A stretch of 64,000 nt of DNA, from assembly GCA_947494675.1 (NCBI GenBank), contig CANLVP010000003.1:359791-423790 (forward strand). Direction: 5' to 3'. The stretch's first letter is position 1, and each line of letters starts with the position of its first letter. The DNA is from an uncultured Paracoccaceae bacterium (lineage in GTDB: Bacteria; Pseudomonadota; Alphaproteobacteria; Rhodobacterales; Rhodobacteraceae). The notes under the pieces are model-generated. The model was given only the letters and a program-made list of their open reading frames with translations. It ran no database searches and was not told where the DNA came from. A program made the translations under genes and the position numbers. Shown here piece after piece: positions 45,875 through 53,935 of this stretch.

Positions 45875-48331
45875 TCAATAGAGATCGACGCGGAAGGGCG
45901 TTGTTTCCCAATAGGCCTGCGCCAGTTGCAGGATACGCGCCTTGGGGTCCGTCTCGGCGGGGCCCTTGCCCAGACGGGTCAGCACCTCGTTCATCGCGCT
46001 TTGGCTTCCGGGGCCAAAGGCACCATCAACGTCGATGTCACCGCCCAGCGCCTTGATCAGACGTTGCGCCCCGCCGTCCAACACGTTGCCCGGCATCGCA
46101 TCAAGCTGTTGCTGCGCGTATTGCGCATTGCGATTCTTGGTCAGCGCGGTTCCCTTGGCGGCCATGACAGCGGCATCAAATTGATCGAAACCGGACACCG
46201 ATTGCGTCATAAGCAGATAGGCCGCCGTGGCTGCTGAGATTGGATCGCCACGCTCCAGCCCTTCGGCATAGATCGCAACGGCCTGCTGCATATCAACACC
46301 ACCGGGGGCAGAGCCGTCGCTATGCATCGTGGCCAGCGTATAGGCTGTGCTGGGGTGGCCTGCGTCATGGGCGTCTTTGATCAGTTCATAGGCTCGGCCT
46401 ACATCTGGCGTGAGCCCAGCCTGCCCGCGCTGATACGCGATCCCAAGGTTCAGCATGCCGTAGATGTCACCACGCGCAACGCTTTCGTTCATGTAGCGCA
46501 AAGCCCTCTCTGGATCGAAATAATCAGAGCTTTCATCAAGATAGAGCCCGGTCAGCGCGTTCATCGCAAAGGTGTGGCCCACCTCCATCGCGCGGACCAG
46601 AAGGTCATAACCTTCAACTTCGGCCTCGGTCGTGCCGCCGTTCAACAGCAGCTCATACCCGAGCGTATGCATCGCGTAAGGGTCGCCCTCTGATACGCCG
46701 CGCGCGAATAGCTGGCGCACCGCGTCACTGTCAGGACGGCCATCGTTTCCGACGCCGCTTTCGTCGTAGCGGGCCAGCAGCGCCAGCGCATGCCAGGCCC
46801 GTGTGTGACCCAGATCGCGTGCTTTTTCAAAACTCGCGCGTGCGCCATCCTGGTTCAAAAGCGCCAGTTGTGCCCGCCCCTTTTGATAGTGGAACCGCCC
46901 AGTATCTGGGTTGGCCGCAATCGCGGCCTCGCAAGCCGCCAGCGCGATTTCTGGCCGGATTTCATTGGGATAGCGGGTGAGGCCCATGCCGTCGGGATCA
47001 AGGTGATCCCCCGCTTCCAAATCGCAATTGTTGGGCACAAGGTTCAGCGCCACTTGCTGTGCGACGCCGTTGACCTCGATCAGGATGCCGTCGGTCAGCT
47101 GCCCGCTTTCAAGCGTCATCGCAGGCACTTGCACGCTTTCGTTCACAAGCGTCAGGCGATCCACGTCGAGGCCGGTCAATGTCCGACCCGTCACGTCGGT
47201 GTTCAGCCCGCTCCGGTCACGCTGCATCAACACACCGGTTTCAGGGCGCGCCAAAAAGCGGACCGTGTCGGTGACACCGATATTCAGGGCCGCAGACAGC
47301 GCCGGGCCGATATCAACTTCTGGCACGAAATCCGCCGTGATGACGTTGGTGATGGGGGCCGCGCTCACTTGCGTTTCCTCAGCCGCCACATCGACATCGG
47401 CCACTCGGGCCACGCCGCGCGTTTCGCCTGTCCCTGAGGAGTTTACCTCAATCGGGCGGCTCAACTGCGCGCCAAGTCCAAAGCTGGCGGGTTCAATCAG
47501 GGTTGAGCTGTCCCATGGCACCTGCCGGCCGTTCGTCCGCTCGAACGTCTTGCGGCGGACCTGCTCAAACACATCCTTGATCAACGCTTCTGGCGTGGCC
47601 GAAGCCTCTTCGATCAAAGACGCGGTAAAGGGGCTGTTGTCGCCTTCGCCGTCATAGGCCAGCGAACCGGGAGAGGTTGAATAAATCAGCATGGAATTCA
47701 GTGGCGCCGATTGGCTGGCGAACCCTGTGCGTGTTTCGCGCAGTGTATTGCCCACCTGGGTCAGCAGTTCCTTGCCCGCAAACGGGTTATCCCGGCAGCT
47801 ATCAAGGATCACGACCTGCAGCCGTGCGCGTGCACCGATAATCCCCACCAAAGAGCCAAGCGAGACCGCCTCAAACGGCACATCATAGACGCTATCAAGG
47901 TCGGCATCGGTCGGAACAAGGTAGTTCTCTGCCCCGATCTGAAAGCCATGTCCGGCAAAGAAAACAACGACTTCGGTGTCGCGGTCCACATCGAACAGCA
48001 CGCGGCGCAACATGTCCTCAAACCCGCGCTTGGTGATGTCCTCGTGGTAGCGCACAAGATAGCCCTGTTCGCGCAAGAACGTCGCGACAGCGCCCGCATC
48101 CGCGTGGGCATTGGGCAGATCAGGAATGTCGGCGTAGTCCGAATTCCCGATCACAATGGCATAGCGTTTTGCGGCGCGGGTGTCGGGATTGATGCCACGG
48201 AGCGGCAGAATATCCGCCGATCCGTTGATCAACCGTTCGACGATCAGGCTGTTCTGGGCCAGCGCTGGGGCCGTGCCCAACACGCTGACCGACAGCAGCG
48301 CTGCGGCCATGACTGATAGCGGCTTGCCCAT
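45875..48331 (-). CDS. Exported caspase (peptidase C14) with SEL1-like repeats and C-terminal peptidoglycan-binding-like segment
   Basis: Signal peptide MGKPLSVMAAALLSVSVLGTAPALA; catalytic VVFFAGHG and VVILDSCRDNPF; SEL1-like LGYELLLNGGTTEAEVEGYDLLVRAMEVGH; C-term GGDIDVDGAFGPGSQSAMNEVL. Track ORF start at 48598 rejected (overlaps the upstream lipoprotein gene). Confidence 0.88.
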   Translation of the reverse strand: MGKPLSVMAAALLSVSVLGTAPALAQNSLIVERLINGSADILPLRGINPDTRAAKRYAIVIGNSDYADIPDLPNAHADAGAVATFLREQGYLVRYHEDITKRGFEDMLRRVLFDVDRDTEVVVFFAGHGFQIGAENYLVPTDADLDSVYDVPFEAVSLGSLVGIIGARARLQVVILDSCRDNPFAGKELLTQVGNTLRETRTGFASQSAPLNSMLIYSTSPGSLAYDGEGDNSPFTASLIEEASATPEALIKDVFEQVRRKTFERTNGRQVPWDSSTLIEPASFGLGAQLSRPIEVNSSGTGETRGVARVADVDVAAEETQVSAAPITNVITADFVPEVDIGPALSAALNIGVTDTVRFLARPETGVLMQRDRSGLNTDVTGRTLTGLDVDRLTLVNESVQVPAMTLESGQLTDGILIEVNGVAQQVALNLVPNNCDLEAGDHLDPDGMGLTRYPNEIRPEIALAACEAAIAANPDTGRFHYQKGRAQLALLNQDGARASFEKARDLGHTRAWHALALLARYDESGVGNDGRPDSDAVRQLFARGVSEGDPYAMHTLGYELLLNGGTTEAEVEGYDLLVRAMEVGHTFAMNALTGLYLDESSDYFDPERALRYMNESVARGDIYGMLNLGIAYQRGQAGLTPDVGRAYELIKDAHDAGHPSTAYTLATMHSDGSAPGGVDMQQAVAIYAEGLERGDPISAATAAYLLMTQSVSGFDQFDAAVMAAKGTALTKNRNAQYAQQQLDAMPGNVLDGGAQRLIKALGGDIDVDGAFGPGSQSAMNEVLTRLGKGPAETDPKARILQLAQAYWETTPFRVDLY

Positions 48332-48332
48332 C

Positions 48333-48683
48333 TTAGCACTGCCAGCAAGGTGGCGGCGCGGGTGCGGGCGGCGCGGGGGGTGTGGGTGTCGGAGATGGTG
48401 ACGGCGACGGTGATGGTGAGGGCGATGGCGACGGTGTTGACGTTGAGGCAGACGCGCGTTCTGCGCGGCGACGTTCTGCCCGCTGTGCGGCCAATTGTCG
48501 TGCGCGTTCAACGGCATCTGCATCGACCGTGGTTTGCGCCGTGGTCGTCGTGGTTTGCGTCTGCTGCGCTGGGATCGTGACGGGCACAGGCACCACAAGG
48601 CAGCCTGAGGTCAGTGTCACCAGCCCCACAACAGCAACGGCACGCAACCGGCGCGGAATGGGTTGGAAGGTCGGAAGGGTCAT
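48333..48683 (-). CDS. Lipoprotein with Ser/Thr-Pro linker and C-terminal CWQC
   Basis: MTLPTFQPIPRRLRAVAVVGLVTLTSGC lipobox; (SP)n(TP)n tail ending PPPCWQC; 1 bp gap to the caspase ATG. Confidence 0.65.
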   Translation of the reverse strand: MTLPTFQPIPRRLRAVAVVGLVTLTSGCLVVPVPVTIPAQQTQTTTTTAQTTVDADAVERARQLAAQRAERRRAERASASTSTPSPSPSPSPSPSPSPTPTPPAPPAPAPPPCWQC

Positions 48684-48727
48684 TTCAATTCTCCTTGTCG
48701 TCAATATTTGGCGTGTAACCACCTGTT

Positions 48728-49048
48728 TTAATTGGCCTCTATCGGCAACCCACCAGCCCCTTTGATCCGTTCGATCAGATCGAGCGTTTTGCGCGGGTCA
48801 GCGCGGTAGGCGTCTTGGATCAGGGGGAAGTCTGCCCATTCCTGCCCTTCTGGCAAGTCAGGATTTCCCTCCTGTGTGATCGAGCGTGTCGTGCCGGTTC
48901 CGGGCACAAGCGCTTGTAATTGCGCGCAAAAATGCGTGCTTAGAAATTCATTCTCGAGCCCGAGATCCGGGCAGTCTGCTGTTTGCGCGAAAGCTGCGCT
49001 GGCACAGGAGGCGACACAGGCGGTGGCCAGACAAAGATTACGTAGCAT
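48728..49048 (-). CDS. Small secreted protein of unknown function
   Basis: MLRNLCLATACVASCASAAFAQTADCPDLG signal peptide; GGGGA upstream. Start 49048 vs 49054 uncertain. Confidence 0.65.
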   Translation of the reverse strand: MLRNLCLATACVASCASAAFAQTADCPDLGLENEFLSTHFCAQLQALVPGTGTTRSITQEGNPDLPEGQEWADFPLIQDAYRADPRKTLDLIERIKGAGGLPIEAN

Positions 49049-49308
49049 TGTCATTTCCCCTTTCATAAGAGCGACTTAGCGCCCCAAACCAATTTAACAA
49101 ACCTGCCGCCAAAGCGGCGTCACGTCAGGTCTTGCCACAAAGCTAACCGATCCAACCCTGCTGCGGGGCGTTGTCGTTTCCAATACGACACCGCCGCCAA
49201 TGCGCGCTCCCTTACGGTAAGACTATCGCAGAAAATCGCGTTTCACCAAACGCTTCTGATCAAAAGATCGGGAATGTGATCCGCCGCCCACCGCACGGTC
49301 GAAAACGA

Positions 49309-49363
49309 CCATGCACAACCGATGAAGAACCGATGCACGACCCATACACAAACCATGCGCATC
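49309..49363 (+). repeat. Five-unit tandem 11-bp repeat array (intergenic)
   Basis: CCATGCACAAC|CGATGAAGAAC|CGATGCACGAC|CCATACACAAA|CCATGCGCATC, contiguous units of exactly 11 nt. Confidence 0.8.
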
Positions 49364-49464
49364 AAAGTCCTAACGTGCATTTACCAAGGCCCGCCATGTC
49401 ACACCTTAACGTATGGAAAACGAGACTGTCCCCAAGCCCCCTTTTGCCTGCTAGCATACCCCCC

Positions 49465-50745
49465 ATGATGTATCGTGTGATCCAAACCCTTGCCCTTCTT
49501 GCGGGCCTTGCCCCCGCCGCCATGGCGGAGGACCGTGCGCTGATTATCGGCATCGAGGGCTATCCCAATCTGGACCTGCGCCTTGCGCCGCAATCTGCAG
49601 CAGACGATGCCATTGCGATGGCGCAGCTGGCGGTCGAGCGCTGGGGTTATCGCCAGACGCAGGTGTCGGTGCTGCTGGACAGTGCCGCAACCTCTGCCGC
49701 GATTTTGGATGCGCTGATTGATGAGCTGGTCGGGCTGACCGCACCGGGTGATCGGGCGCTGTTGTATTTCGCAGGATTGGGCAGCCGGAACACGCAAGAC
49801 ACCCGCGTGATCCTTGCCTATGACAGCGAGAGCTTGTTGGGCCGTATTCCAGAGGATGCGTTGTCAGATATCCTTGACCTTATCGCGGATCGCGATGTGA
49901 CCGTGATTATGGACACAGGCTTTCGTGGCGACATCGGCACCCCGGGCCAGCGCGGGATTGGCGCGCCGGGGTTTGAGGCGACACCTTTTGCCGCCAACGG
50001 CGATATGCGCGCGGTCTATACCGCCTCTGCCGTTAGCCAGACCGCTTGGGAGACTGCGATGGGCGGTGTGATGACGACTGCACTGATCGCGGGCGCCAAG
50101 GGTGCCGCCGATAGCGATGGCGACGGGATTGCGAGCCACGGCGAATTGCTGGCGCATCTGCGCAGCCAAAGCACGGCATGGTGTGCGGCCCAAACCAATT
50201 GCGCGCCCATGGGCCTGACGCCTGATTTTGCCGGGCCGCTGAACCGCAGCCCCGTGGGCGTGACGGTGGCGAGTGCCACCCCTGCGCCACAAGGAGCGGC
50301 GCCATTTGCTGCATCCAACACCGCCGATCTGCGCCTGTCGATTGACGCGGGAACGGCGCTGACGATTGGGCAGTCGGTGACGTTCCGCGTCCGGGCAGCC
50401 GCAGCAGGCACATTGCTAATTTTGGATGTGGACCCCGCCGGTCAACTGGCCCGCGTGTTTCCATCGGCACTTGCCCCCAATAGCGGGACCGCGATTGCGC
50501 CGGGCGTCGAACTGGCAATCCCGAACGGGAAATCCACCAATGGTGCGCCGCTGCGCGTGCGTGTGACCGGACCTGCCGGTGATGGTTATCTGCTGGCGGT
50601 GTTGATCGAAGGCGAGGGCGTGGATGCGACCCGGCTTTTGCCGCAGGGACCGGCCAGCACCGCCCTGCCCCAGCTTGCACAGAACTTGCAGTCACTTGGC
50701 CGAAACTGGTCGGCGGTGACGCTCAACTATACAATTTCGAACTGA
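49465..50745 (+). CDS. Exported caspase-fold protein lacking the catalytic His and Cys (pseudo-caspase) with DUF4384-like C-terminus
   Basis: Signal peptide MMYRVIQTLALLAGLAPAAMA then EDRALIIGIEGYPNL; FAGLGS in place of YAGHGS and MDTGFRG in place of DSCHSG; C-term GTLLILDVDPAGQLARVFPS..ELAIPNG. N-terminal extension to 49171 rejected. Confidence 0.85.
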   Translation: MMYRVIQTLALLAGLAPAAMAEDRALIIGIEGYPNLDLRLAPQSAADDAIAMAQLAVERWGYRQTQVSVLLDSAATSAAILDALIDELVGLTAPGDRALLYFAGLGSRNTQDTRVILAYDSESLLGRIPEDALSDILDLIADRDVTVIMDTGFRGDIGTPGQRGIGAPGFEATPFAANGDMRAVYTASAVSQTAWETAMGGVMTTALIAGAKGAADSDGDGIASHGELLAHLRSQSTAWCAAQTNCAPMGLTPDFAGPLNRSPVGVTVASATPAPQGAAPFAASNTADLRLSIDAGTALTIGQSVTFRVRAAAAGTLLILDVDPAGQLARVFPSALAPNSGTAIAPGVELAIPNGKSTNGAPLRVRVTGPAGDGYLLAVLIEGEGVDATRLLPQGPASTALPQLAQNLQSLGRNWSAVTLNYTISN

Positions 50746-50765
50746 CGATTGGATCGGAGGATATG

Positions 50766-51650
50766 ATGAAACGCCTTTCCCTGTTGACCTGTATTGGCCT
50801 TGGCCTTGCGGCACCTGCGCTGGCCTGCGACGGCTACGACGCCGCTGTTGCTGCGGTGCAGACCGAAGACGCAGCGGCAGCTGCGACGATTTACGATGCG
50901 CTGATTGCCGACAATGCCTGCACAGATGATTTCCGCGAATGGGTTGGTGATTTTCTGGCCCGCGACGCCTTTGCCGTGACGTTGACGGATGTGGATGAGG
51001 CGACCAAGCGTGCGGCCTTTGAAACCGCGTTGGGGTATGAGCGGCACTGGCGCAGCTTTGCCGGTTTGGGGCAGTTGGATTGGGCCGCCAAGGATTACGC
51101 AGCGGCTGCGGCGCATTTTCAACTGGCGCTGAATGAATTGGCCGAAGGTGATCAGACCCACAAGGCTGAAACGGGCGAGATTGCCGAGATTTATCAGCTG
51201 GCCACTGCCAGCCTGTCTTTGGCCGATCAGGTTGTGGACCTGCCCACGACACGCGCGGGCAATCCCAGCGTGATGCTGACCGGCAAAGTGCGGGGCTTTG
51301 AGGTCGAGGAAATCCCTCTGCCGATCACGTTTGAATATAACTCGGTTCAGTTTGATGCCGCTGGATTGGATTACGCTAATGCACTCGTCAATCACCTGCT
51401 GATGGTCAATCCGGTCAGCGTGAACCTGGGCGGGCATACCGACCCTGTGGGCGGAGAAGAGTTCAACCTTGCCCTGTCCGAGGCGCGGGCCGAGGCCTTG
51501 GCCACCTATATCAAAGCGGCCGGTTTTGAAGGCGAGATCATCACCACACCCTACGGCGAGAGCCGCCTGCCCGCGCCCCCATCGGGGATTGAGGCCGGAT
51601 CAGAGGAGCACCACCGCATCGCGCGGCGGGTGTCGTTTACAAGCCAATGA
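50766..51650 (+). CDS. OmpA-family protein with signal peptide
   Basis: MKRLSLLTCIGLGLAAPALA; ITFEYNSVQFDAAGLDYANALVNHLL...VNLGGHTDPVGGEEFNLALSEARAEALATYI. GGAGG upstream (ATG 50763 is the alternative start). Confidence 0.9.
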   Translation: MKRLSLLTCIGLGLAAPALACDGYDAAVAAVQTEDAAAAATIYDALIADNACTDDFREWVGDFLARDAFAVTLTDVDEATKRAAFETALGYERHWRSFAGLGQLDWAAKDYAAAAAHFQLALNELAEGDQTHKAETGEIAEIYQLATASLSLADQVVDLPTTRAGNPSVMLTGKVRGFEVEEIPLPITFEYNSVQFDAAGLDYANALVNHLLMVNPVSVNLGGHTDPVGGEEFNLALSEARAEALATYIKAAGFEGEIITTPYGESRLPAPPSGIEAGSEEHHRIARRVSFTSQ

Positions 51651-53218
51651 GGGGGGTCATCTTAGCCGCCGGGTTGGCCTGCGCCGCGCTGCCTGCTTGG
51701 GCGGAAAAGACCTATGGCCTTGTGATCGGGATCGATGAATACGCTCATGTGCCGGATTTGCAGGGGGCGGTGAATGATGCCCGCGATATTGCCGATGCGT
51801 TGGCGGGGATCGGGGCCGAGGTGACGTTGCTGTTGGATGGGGCGGCGTCGCGGGCGGCGATCTTTGAGGCCTGGGAGGCAGTGGCCGCGAAGATTGAGCC
51901 CGGTGACCGTTTGGTCGTCAGCTATGCAGGCCACGGGTCTTATGAGCCGGAGTATATCATCGGGTCAGAGGAAGACGGGCGGGATGAGAATTTCCTGCTG
52001 GCCGGGTTTTCGTTTCAGGGCGCTGGTGCGGCAGAGCGCATTCGTGATGATGAATTGGCGGCGCTGATTGCATTGACGCCGCAGGCCGAGGTCGTGTTTC
52101 TGGCCGACAGCTGCCATTCGGGCACGGTGTCGCGGAATGTGGTGCCGGTGCTGGGTTACCGCTATGTGATCGGCGGCAAGCTGTCGGATGATCCCTTGCC
52201 ACCGCCGCCGCCACGGGTGTCGCCCAGCGAGGGCAAGGATGATGTGGCGCTGTTTTTGGCCGCTGTGGACGAGGCCGAAAAGGTGCCGGAGTTTTTGATC
52301 GACGGTAAACCGCGGGGCGCGCTGTCCTATGCCTTTGCCCGCGGGTTGCGCGGCGAGGCGGATGAGGATGCCAATGGGGCCGTCACCAAGGACGAATTGG
52401 CGACCTATGTGCGTCGCTCGGTGCGCGAGATCAGTCAGGGCTTGCAGGCGCCGCAGATTAGCCCGCGTGGGGATGAAGAGCGTGTGCTGTTTGCGTTGAA
52501 TGGCGCGCCGGAGCCGGTGATGATCGAGGTGTCGCCGTTTGAAAAGACTTTGGCCGGGCTGCCGGAGCTGCCTGTTGCGCATAACGGCGGCAACTATGGG
52601 GCGACCGTTCTGGCGGGGATGGAAGGCGTTCAGCTGGTCGAGGACCCGCTGGCCGCCGCTGCTTTTGCGGATTTCAGCGCCGGTGTGTTGCGGTCCACGG
52701 TCGGGGATGCGCTTGCGTCATTCAGCGACGATGCCCCGGCGGTGGGCCTTGGGCTGGCCATCGACAAGCTGCGGGTGACGCAAGCGATTTCCACGGCGGG
52801 CCGATCCGGCGCGTTGGAGGTGCGGTTCGCCGAAGGGGATCGCAGCTATACCAGCCGCGACCGGGTGACGGTGCAGATCAGGGGTCGTACGACGCCTTAC
52901 ATCACGCTGGTGGCGGTGTCTTCTGATGGGTCGGTCTCACTCCTGTATCCCTATCAGGGCGACGGCATCGACGATCCGATTGCGGTGATCCCGGCGGACC
53001 CGCTGAACCTGACCTTGCAGGTGCAGGCGCCTTATGGGGCGGACCATATCATTGCGATTGAAACGCAGGGCGATGGGGCTGATCTGCGGGCGGTGCTGGC
53101 GCATCTGGATGGGCAGGACAGCCGCACACCAAAGCTGTGGGAGGTGCTGCGCACGGCGGTGCTGAAGATGGACACACAACCGCACATCGCGCTCTTTCCT
53201 TTCTACACAAGGCCTTAA
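51647..53218 (+). CDS. Exported caspase family protein (peptidase C14) with DUF4384-like C-terminus
   Basis: Signal peptide MRGVILAAGLACAALPAWA; KTYGLVIGIDEYAHVPDLQGAVNDARDIADAL; LVVSYAGHGSYEPEY; VVFLADSCHSG; ITLVAVSSDGSVSLLYPY. ATGA overlap with the OmpA gene. Confidence 0.92.
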   Translation: MRGVILAAGLACAALPAWAEKTYGLVIGIDEYAHVPDLQGAVNDARDIADALAGIGAEVTLLLDGAASRAAIFEAWEAVAAKIEPGDRLVVSYAGHGSYEPEYIIGSEEDGRDENFLLAGFSFQGAGAAERIRDDELAALIALTPQAEVVFLADSCHSGTVSRNVVPVLGYRYVIGGKLSDDPLPPPPPRVSPSEGKDDVALFLAAVDEAEKVPEFLIDGKPRGALSYAFARGLRGEADEDANGAVTKDELATYVRRSVREISQGLQAPQISPRGDEERVLFALNGAPEPVMIEVSPFEKTLAGLPELPVAHNGGNYGATVLAGMEGVQLVEDPLAAAAFADFSAGVLRSTVGDALASFSDDAPAVGLGLAIDKLRVTQAISTAGRSGALEVRFAEGDRSYTSRDRVTVQIRGRTTPYITLVAVSSDGSVSLLYPYQGDGIDDPIAVIPADPLNLTLQVQAPYGADHIIAIETQGDGADLRAVLAHLDGQDSRTPKLWEVLRTAVLKMDTQPHIALFPFYTRP

Positions 53219-53251: not shown

Positions 53252-53935
53252 TTGCCCATGAAAGGCGGGACGCCCGTGAACGAGACGGACAAAAAGGCGC
53301 AATTCAGTTTGCTGCACGCATTTGAAACGGTCGAAGCCTCGCTTCGCACCGAAAACTGGTTCTTTGAAACCGTGCGGGCAGAGCTGCAAAAGACGGCGCC
53401 TTTGTCTGACTTCCCAACAATCATGGGATCCAACGGGCATGATTATCTGCTGCATTTCACCCAGTTCATGTTCTTTCTGCGTGCACTCGATTGCACCGAT
53501 GCCGCCCAGATCAGCGTGTTCATCGACAGCCACAACGACAAGATCAACGGCCAGTTGAATGACCCCGATTTTGGAAAATCGCCTAAGGAATTCCAAAAGG
53601 CGATCTTTAAGCCCGACCGGAAGGCGAAGATCCTGGATAGCATCCGCGCGCTGGGTGCGCCGGTCTTTGCGATCTATGAATTCGGGCATCTGCTGATCGA
53701 CGATATGTCGCCCAAGACCACCGAAAAGCTGATTGAAGATTTGCGCTTTGGCAAGCTGCTCGAGCGGCGCGAGGATGACCGGCTTGAGGCGGATGCAAAG
53801 CGGGTGCTGATCGCCTCAACCGGGTTTCTGGAAGACACATATAAGATGTCGCTACTGATGCAGCGCCGGATGATCGCCGAGAGCATCACCGACGAGGAAA
53901 TCGCAGCGGCCCGGAGTGCGGCGCAAGCGGATTGA
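53252..53935 (+). CDS. Hypothetical protein, helical, cytoplasmic
   Basis: 227 aa, no signal peptide, no family recognised; alternative GTG start at 53276. Confidence 0.7.
   Translation: MPMKGGTPVNETDKKAQFSLLHAFETVEASLRTENWFFETVRAELQKTAPLSDFPTIMGSNGHDYLLHFTQFMFFLRALDCTDAAQISVFIDSHNDKINGQLNDPDFGKSPKEFQKAIFKPDRKAKILDSIRALGAPVFAIYEFGHLLIDDMSPKTTEKLIEDLRFGKLLERREDDRLEADAKRVLIASTGFLEDTYKMSLLMQRRMIAESITDEEIAAARSAAQAD

Follow-up and report, generated by a model that had tools for sequence, protein, structure and literature searches.

An exported set of caspase homologs with intact and lost catalytic dyads, conserved in an alphaproteobacterial genus and linked to Tad-like loci in its relatives

A 64,000-nucleotide stretch of the genome of an uncultured, marine Paracoccaceae bacterium (Rhodobacterales; GCA_947494675.1, contig CANLVP010000003.1, positions 359,791 to 423,790; hereafter, the window) carries seven genes in two divergent operons, encoding two exported caspase homologs with an intact His-Cys dyad (p3 and g3), an exported caspase homolog that lost both catalytic residues (p1), an exported OmpA-domain protein (p2), a lipoprotein (g2), a small secreted protein (g1), and a protein predicted to be helical and lacking a signal peptide (dn1). 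Export, co-inheritance, and the paired dyad states of this module are well supported by sequence comparison. Our preferred, still tentative, interpretation is that the products would assemble outside the cytoplasm into a protease complex specific for Lys/Arg, which would be tethered to peptidoglycan, process proteins of the envelope or surface, and have formerly been an accessory of a Tad-like machine.

An initial, sequence-only reading of the window described six of these genes, and all six open reading frames are intact. The gene arrangement was confirmed: 416 bp separate the first start codons of the divergent operons (about 415 bp had been reported), and the p2 stop and p3 start codons overlap as ATGA. 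The described block is nevertheless one gene short because dn1 (53252-53935, plus strand) belongs to the unit, which runs to 53935. This seventh gene, the association with Tad-like loci, and a palindrome in the divergent gap are new relative to that reading. Within the genus, the module genes are conserved with ratios of nonsynonymous to synonymous substitution rates (dN/dS) of about 0.05-0.18, pseudo-caspase gene p1 included (dS is near saturation), which argues that the locus is more than a chance cluster.

The type-I-metacaspase-like protein p3 (51647-53218, plus strand) contains the Pfam Peptidase_C14 (C14) domain (E=1.5e-16; 61 bits against a curated cutoff of 21.4) with the dyad H96/C156, and a DUF4384 domain (E=3e-6). 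It aligns with the yeast metacaspase across the catalytic and acidic motifs (GHG, EEDGxDE, DDE, and DSCHSGTV), and D44 and D154, the acidic residues expected in the pocket, are conserved. The other caspase homolog with an intact dyad, g3 (45875-48331, minus strand; 818 amino acids (aa)), yields a stronger C14 match (E=6e-33; 115 bits against the same cutoff) and retains His128 and Cys179 along with the motif ILDSCRDNPF; the dyad is kept in all g3 homologs examined, and identity to the counterparts in three further genera (G080, G147, and G359 in our survey) is 55-60%. Both proteins are, by domain score and dyad, C14 caspase homologs. The sequence-only reading also gave g3 SEL1 repeats and a peptidoglycan-binding-like C-terminus. 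The Sel1/TPR repeats stand: although the Sel1 match in the window protein is below the cutoff (E=0.006), the repeats are detected in 9 of 9 homologs (best E=2e-30). A peptidoglycan-binding C-terminus is plausible but weak, with a PG_binding_3 match of E=0.11 in the window protein, matches to the same family in two of the nine homologs, and one match to PG_binding_1. The extreme C-terminus of g3 (FRVDLY; 45878-45895) shows the R-x-D-L-Y/F end motif that is common to Sel1 caspases across genera, including those of Rhizobium and Paracoccus.

The third caspase homolog, p1 (49465-50745, plus strand), is a pseudo-orthocaspase: it has a C14 domain (E=1.5e-7; 31.8 bits) and a C-terminal DUF4384 domain (E=3e-8), with the dyad replaced by Leu and Gly. 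Its dN/dS in the genus, 0.07-0.17, is like that of the other module genes, with the same saturation of dS. In the caspase-domain tree, p1, p3, and g3/Sel1 proteins form separate clades (support 89/84, 100/98, and 100/100, respectively). The p1 dyad varies across these lineages: the genus combines Leu, Ile, or Val with Gly, G359 has Leu/Ser, both G080 and G147 have His/Gly, Rhizobium has Gln/Cys, and G008, G017, Azospirillum, G659, and G455 have His/Cys. The p3 dyad is His/Cys in all lineages but G455, whose p3 has Ala/Gly and whose p1 dyad is intact. Every two-caspase operon examined thus keeps at least one catalytically intact member, and the dead member may be either of the two. The proposed combination of one pseudo-caspase with active-motif caspases was borne out, and the dyad columns and dN/dS indicate that the active/inactive pair is conserved under purifying selection.

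Between the two plus-strand caspase genes lies p2 (50763-51650, plus strand), with a helical or TPR-like N-terminus and an OmpA domain just above the Pfam cutoff (E=3e-6; 28.0 bits against 27.2); its assignment is strengthened by D227 and R242, the Asp and Arg expected to bind peptidoglycan, which are invariant among nine homologs. Of the anchoring to peptidoglycan that had been suggested, the part ascribed to the OmpA protein fits these residues, whereas the profile evidence for g3 is weak. On the minus strand, g1 (48728-49048; 106 aa) encodes a small protein with a signal peptide and without a known family, 74-84% identical within the genus, that has a conserved Cys pair and the motif R(A/S)DPxKTLxLIxRI; a match to RseA_N (E=0.05) was judged to be due to chance. 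The product of g2 (48333-48683, minus strand; 116 aa) is a small Pro/Ser-rich lipoprotein with the lipobox LTSGC. Its sequence is poorly conserved, and the counterparts are positional: in G080 and G147, a lipoprotein gene separates g1 from g3, and in G359 one follows g1.

Export was scored with a heuristic based on hydrophobicity and the AXA motif, in place of SignalP. All six products, g1-g3 and p1-p3, score well above most of the cytoplasmic controls in the window, although one such control, pyrE, scores 2.8, near the lowest positives. The homologs of p1, p3, and g3 have high signal scores in nearly all cases examined, the exception being g3 of G230, for which the start could not be placed; dn1 has no signal by the same score. 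Invariant Cys pairs in g1, p2 (Cys22/Cys53), and g3 (Cys436/Cys467) fit an oxidizing periplasm. The Sec or lipoprotein signals that had been attributed to all six products are thus upheld by the heuristic scores and the g2 lipobox.

Co-conservation, which the sequence-only reading had named beforehand as the test that could overturn it, was found. All seven genes are adjacent and in the same order in 6/6 species of the genus, and they are linked on one contig, within about 30 kb, in G080, G147, and G359; G147 and G359 were found via p3 alone, and g1, g3, and dn1 then turned up on the same contig in both. In a survey of the family (101 genera, one genome per genus), g1 and dn1 were each detected in only two genera, the same two (G000 and G080); elsewhere, both are rare, with one exception for dn1. 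Among 296 genomes of the order that were sampled separately, 5/5 genomes with a close p3 also carry dn1, which was additionally found without a close p3 in G138, along with two distant dn1-like matches. These co-occurrences are counts on sampled genomes rather than a formal test. Of the extracytoplasmic proteolytic module that had been envisaged, then, export and co-conservation stand (signal scores and 6/6 species). As for dn1 itself, it matched no Pfam, NCBIfam, or PADLOC family, no solved structure was found to be similar, searches of phages and plasmids returned no homologs, and a fold search gave no match at E<=0.001 and was not used. One distant dn1-like gene, on the conjugative plasmid pSMR3-1 of Roseovarius (L124:15023-21097), adjoins genes for DUF4403 and TIR-domain proteins.

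In G080, G147, and G359, and on Rhizobium plasmids, the module lies within a specialized Tad-like (type IVc pilus) locus that also encodes two ATPases and FHA/kinase proteins. Around the module, G080 and G147 carry genes for TadA, TadB, TadC, TadE, TadG, RcpC, and an FGE-domain protein, with a prepilin (A24) peptidase gene between p3 and dn1 and a second ATPase gene divergent from g1. In G359, TadA/B/C, the peptidase, the FGE-domain protein, and the second ATPase are encoded near the module; TadE/G and RcpC were not found in the stretches read. Plasmids of Rhizobium leguminosarum WSM1325 and R. etli CFN42 carry a similar Tad-like locus with module genes, in the order Sel1 caspase, dn1-like gene, OmpA/DUF4384, caspase, trypsin + pseudo-caspase + DUF4384, serpin, kinase, and then FHA, TadC/B/A, RcpC, TadG, TadE, and peptidase, with the second ATPase in WSM1325. 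A tblastn search with p3 and another with the dn1-like protein each matched 88 Rhizobium plasmids and one Neorhizobium plasmid (the two sets were confirmed to coincide only for plasmids listed in both). A Tad-like machine near the module is hence complete in G080, G147, and Rhizobium, and partial in G359; the clade of the second ATPases has 100/100 support.

In the window genome, the module has no specialized Tad- or Kil-like machine beside it or nearby: the only TadA paralogs of the genus are ordinary ones, about 47% identical and encoded elsewhere, and the FGE-domain protein has no match in the window genome. In the trees of p1, p3, and g3, the genus groups with G359 inside the Tad-linked group. 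Because all three trees nest the genus in this way, one loss is simpler than repeated gains, and the Tad-like locus was probably lost in the genus, with the module kept alone; this is an argument from parsimony rather than proof, for the direction of gain or loss as well.

The divergent gap contains an operator-like palindrome, TGTCGT-N7-ACGACA (49172-49190, with no strand assigned). All six species of the genus have an exact copy, located 122-124 bp upstream of g1. Copies with a single mismatch occur about 80 bp ahead of g1 in G080 and G147, and one with two mismatches occurs upstream of g1 in G359; the expected count in the window with one mismatch allowed is 0.13. At comparable strength, the palindrome was not found in the Rhizobium loci. 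A putative -10 element, TAGCAT (49452-49457, plus strand), lies within the conserved block CTGCTAGCAT, only 7 nt ahead of the p1 start codon, and this short distance suggests that the p1 transcript is leaderless. A promoter scan gave no hit in this analysis, terminator counts were the same as in shuffled sequences, no Rfam match was obtained, and the window contains no tRNA gene.

Metacaspases are specific for Lys and Arg, and can be calcium-dependent. By analogy, and given its conserved acidic motifs, p3, an exported type-I-metacaspase-like enzyme, would be expected to cleave after Lys or Arg, possibly in a calcium-dependent manner. Under our preferred interpretation, the catalytically dead paralog p1 would work with p3, and p2 would hold p3 at the cell wall. 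The divergent operon would add the Sel1-repeat caspase g3, the lipoprotein g2, and the small disulfide-type secreted protein g1, and dn1 might act from the cytoplasmic side, as a partner or a regulator. The set would have arisen as an accessory of a specialized Tad-like envelope machine with FHA/kinase signaling; after the loss of this machine in the genus, the retained module would probably trim proteins of the envelope or surface, possibly the components of an ordinary Tad pilus, in response to contact or to a signal from the envelope.

Several observations weigh against this interpretation. Two-caspase or OmpA-caspase operons without nearby Tad genes exist in G055, G292, G122, G008, G017, and Azospirillum, so that the Tad link of the module is not universal. 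The main TadA grouping that unites Rhizobium with Rhodobacteraceae has only moderate support (86/77) and carries a long-branch warning, and support for the p1 clade is 89/84. In G138 (L135:12816-14623), a close dn1 homolog lies beside a Crp-type gene, with no caspase within about 30 kb. The structure predictions of dn1 and g1 (predicted local distance difference test scores of 61 and 52) are too poor for use. A broader generalization is more doubtful: that, throughout the Alphaproteobacteria, peptidoglycan-tethered caspase/pseudo-caspase pairs would serve a Kil-like Tad machine under FHA/kinase control as its regulated proteolytic arm, that this arm could persist after the machine is lost and function independently as a protease system of the periplasm, and that the whole would represent a previously undescribed class of envelope system.

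Among the alternatives, antagonism fares best, though we regard it as unlikely: the exported caspases would be effectors, or processing factors, that a Tad-like machine or another one would deliver against neighboring cells, and g1 or g2 would be the cognate inhibitor. Relatives of p3 or g3 lie beside type VI secretion system (T6SS) genes in Azospirillum and Ruegeria, the Rhizobium operon includes a serpin gene, and the TadA N-terminus in G080, G147, and G359 shows an FHA match (E=0.002-0.02, below cutoff), a feature shared with KilF of the Kil predation system. The OmpA partner, however, speaks for retention at the producer's own cell wall, and no dedicated delivery machine is left in the genus. 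Moreover, immunity proteins are often diversified, whereas g1 is well conserved.

A structural role, in which the caspase and DUF4384 folds scaffold envelope assembly and catalysis is incidental, appears improbable. It would account for the death of one paralog in several lineages and for purifying selection on the dead copy, but not readily for the one intact His-Cys dyad kept in every pair examined or for the dyad kept in all g3 homologs examined.

Immunity or programmed cell death, with the module acting as a caspase defense system of the kind found in defense islands, is disfavored and very improbable. The PADLOC caspase matches (best E=8e-16) reflect the shared C14 domain only; the model matched is a generic caspase one, the OmpA domain matches ZorB, and all NCBIfam matches are below the cutoff. 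The products are exported, the unit contains no sensor NTPase, nuclease, or other defense gene, and the neighbors are metabolic genes with no tRNA gene in the window, so the cytoplasmic effector with a sensor partner that characterizes caspase-based anti-phage defense appears to be missing. Finally, a chance neighborhood of unrelated caspase genes, conceivable given that such genes are common in Alphaproteobacteria and that the window genome encodes five C14 proteins, is contradicted by the gene order kept in all six species, the linkage in three more genera, and the matching rarity of g1 and dn1, and has a negligible probability.

The description of the system as undescribed holds only in part. 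A 2012 survey (PMC3501461) had recorded 14 metacaspase operons with OmpA domains, and its authors suspected signal peptides; the sections of it consulted do not describe the module, the pseudo-caspase partner, or the Tad link. A 2019 survey of alphaproteobacterial pseudo-orthocaspases, likewise dead homologs, described the trypsin + Gln/Cys pseudo-orthocaspase + DUF4384 architecture (PMC6426788). This form falls in the p1 clade and occupies the p1 position in Rhizobium, whereas p1 of the window lacks the trypsin domain and lost both dyad residues; the words operon, OmpA, Sel1, and peptidoglycan are absent from the text of that survey. No report joining caspases with Tad was found in a search limited to an open-access library. 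With type I metacaspases and prokaryotic orthocaspases (C14; yeast Mca1, PDB 4f6o; Geobacter GSU0716, PDB 3bij), p3 shares the caspase fold and the His-Cys dyad, but it is exported, bears DUF4384, and sits in an OmpA/pseudo-caspase operon. The loci of the relatives share TadA/B/C/E/G, RcpC, and the prepilin peptidase with Tad/Flp pili. The Myxococcus Kil predation apparatus has an ATPase, KilF, with an FHA-like N-terminus (PMC8460266), comparable to the sub-cutoff one on TadA of the relatives; caspase and OmpA are not mentioned in that paper, TadG, present in the relatives' loci, is missing from Kil, and the window genus lacks such a locus.

Related genes occur in other contexts as well. In G055 (L069:11758-16485), an OmpA-caspase without Tad is preceded by genes for a ferric-reductase-like membrane protein and a cytochrome c/DUF4384 protein, and the context upstream of the OmpA-caspase in G292 (L070:2590-7650) is similar, judged by the sequence start only. 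The T6SS genes mentioned above lie near the OmpA-caspase pair in Azospirillum and near a g3 relative in Ruegeria; a Ruegeria conchae plasmid (L127:5000-11205) carries the series ExbB-ExbD-ExbD-DUF4384-small protein-Sel1 caspase adjoining T6SS genes. A Crp-type regulator like that of G138 also accompanies the module in G080, G147, and G359, and its gene is a candidate for the regulator acting at the palindrome. In G103 (L034, contig C5), two more caspase-domain proteins are encoded close to a protein of 1196 aa in which AGMGKT may be a P-loop, and these could belong to a separate system. Similar proteins of 730-750 aa are encoded near caspase genes in two genera (L027:13707-15902 and L068:10785-13028), one with a weak glycosyltransferase 28 match.

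Bacterial caspase homologs are usually discussed as cytoplasmic death or defense proteases. If our interpretation is correct, an exported set of live and dead caspases would represent a different job for these proteins, proteolysis at the cell envelope. The related locus on the R. leguminosarum and R. etli plasmids offers a genetically tractable test case, and the dyad states, with both residues intact, one lost, or both lost, and with the roles swapped in one lineage, form a naturally occurring series in which the persistence of dead caspases can be studied.

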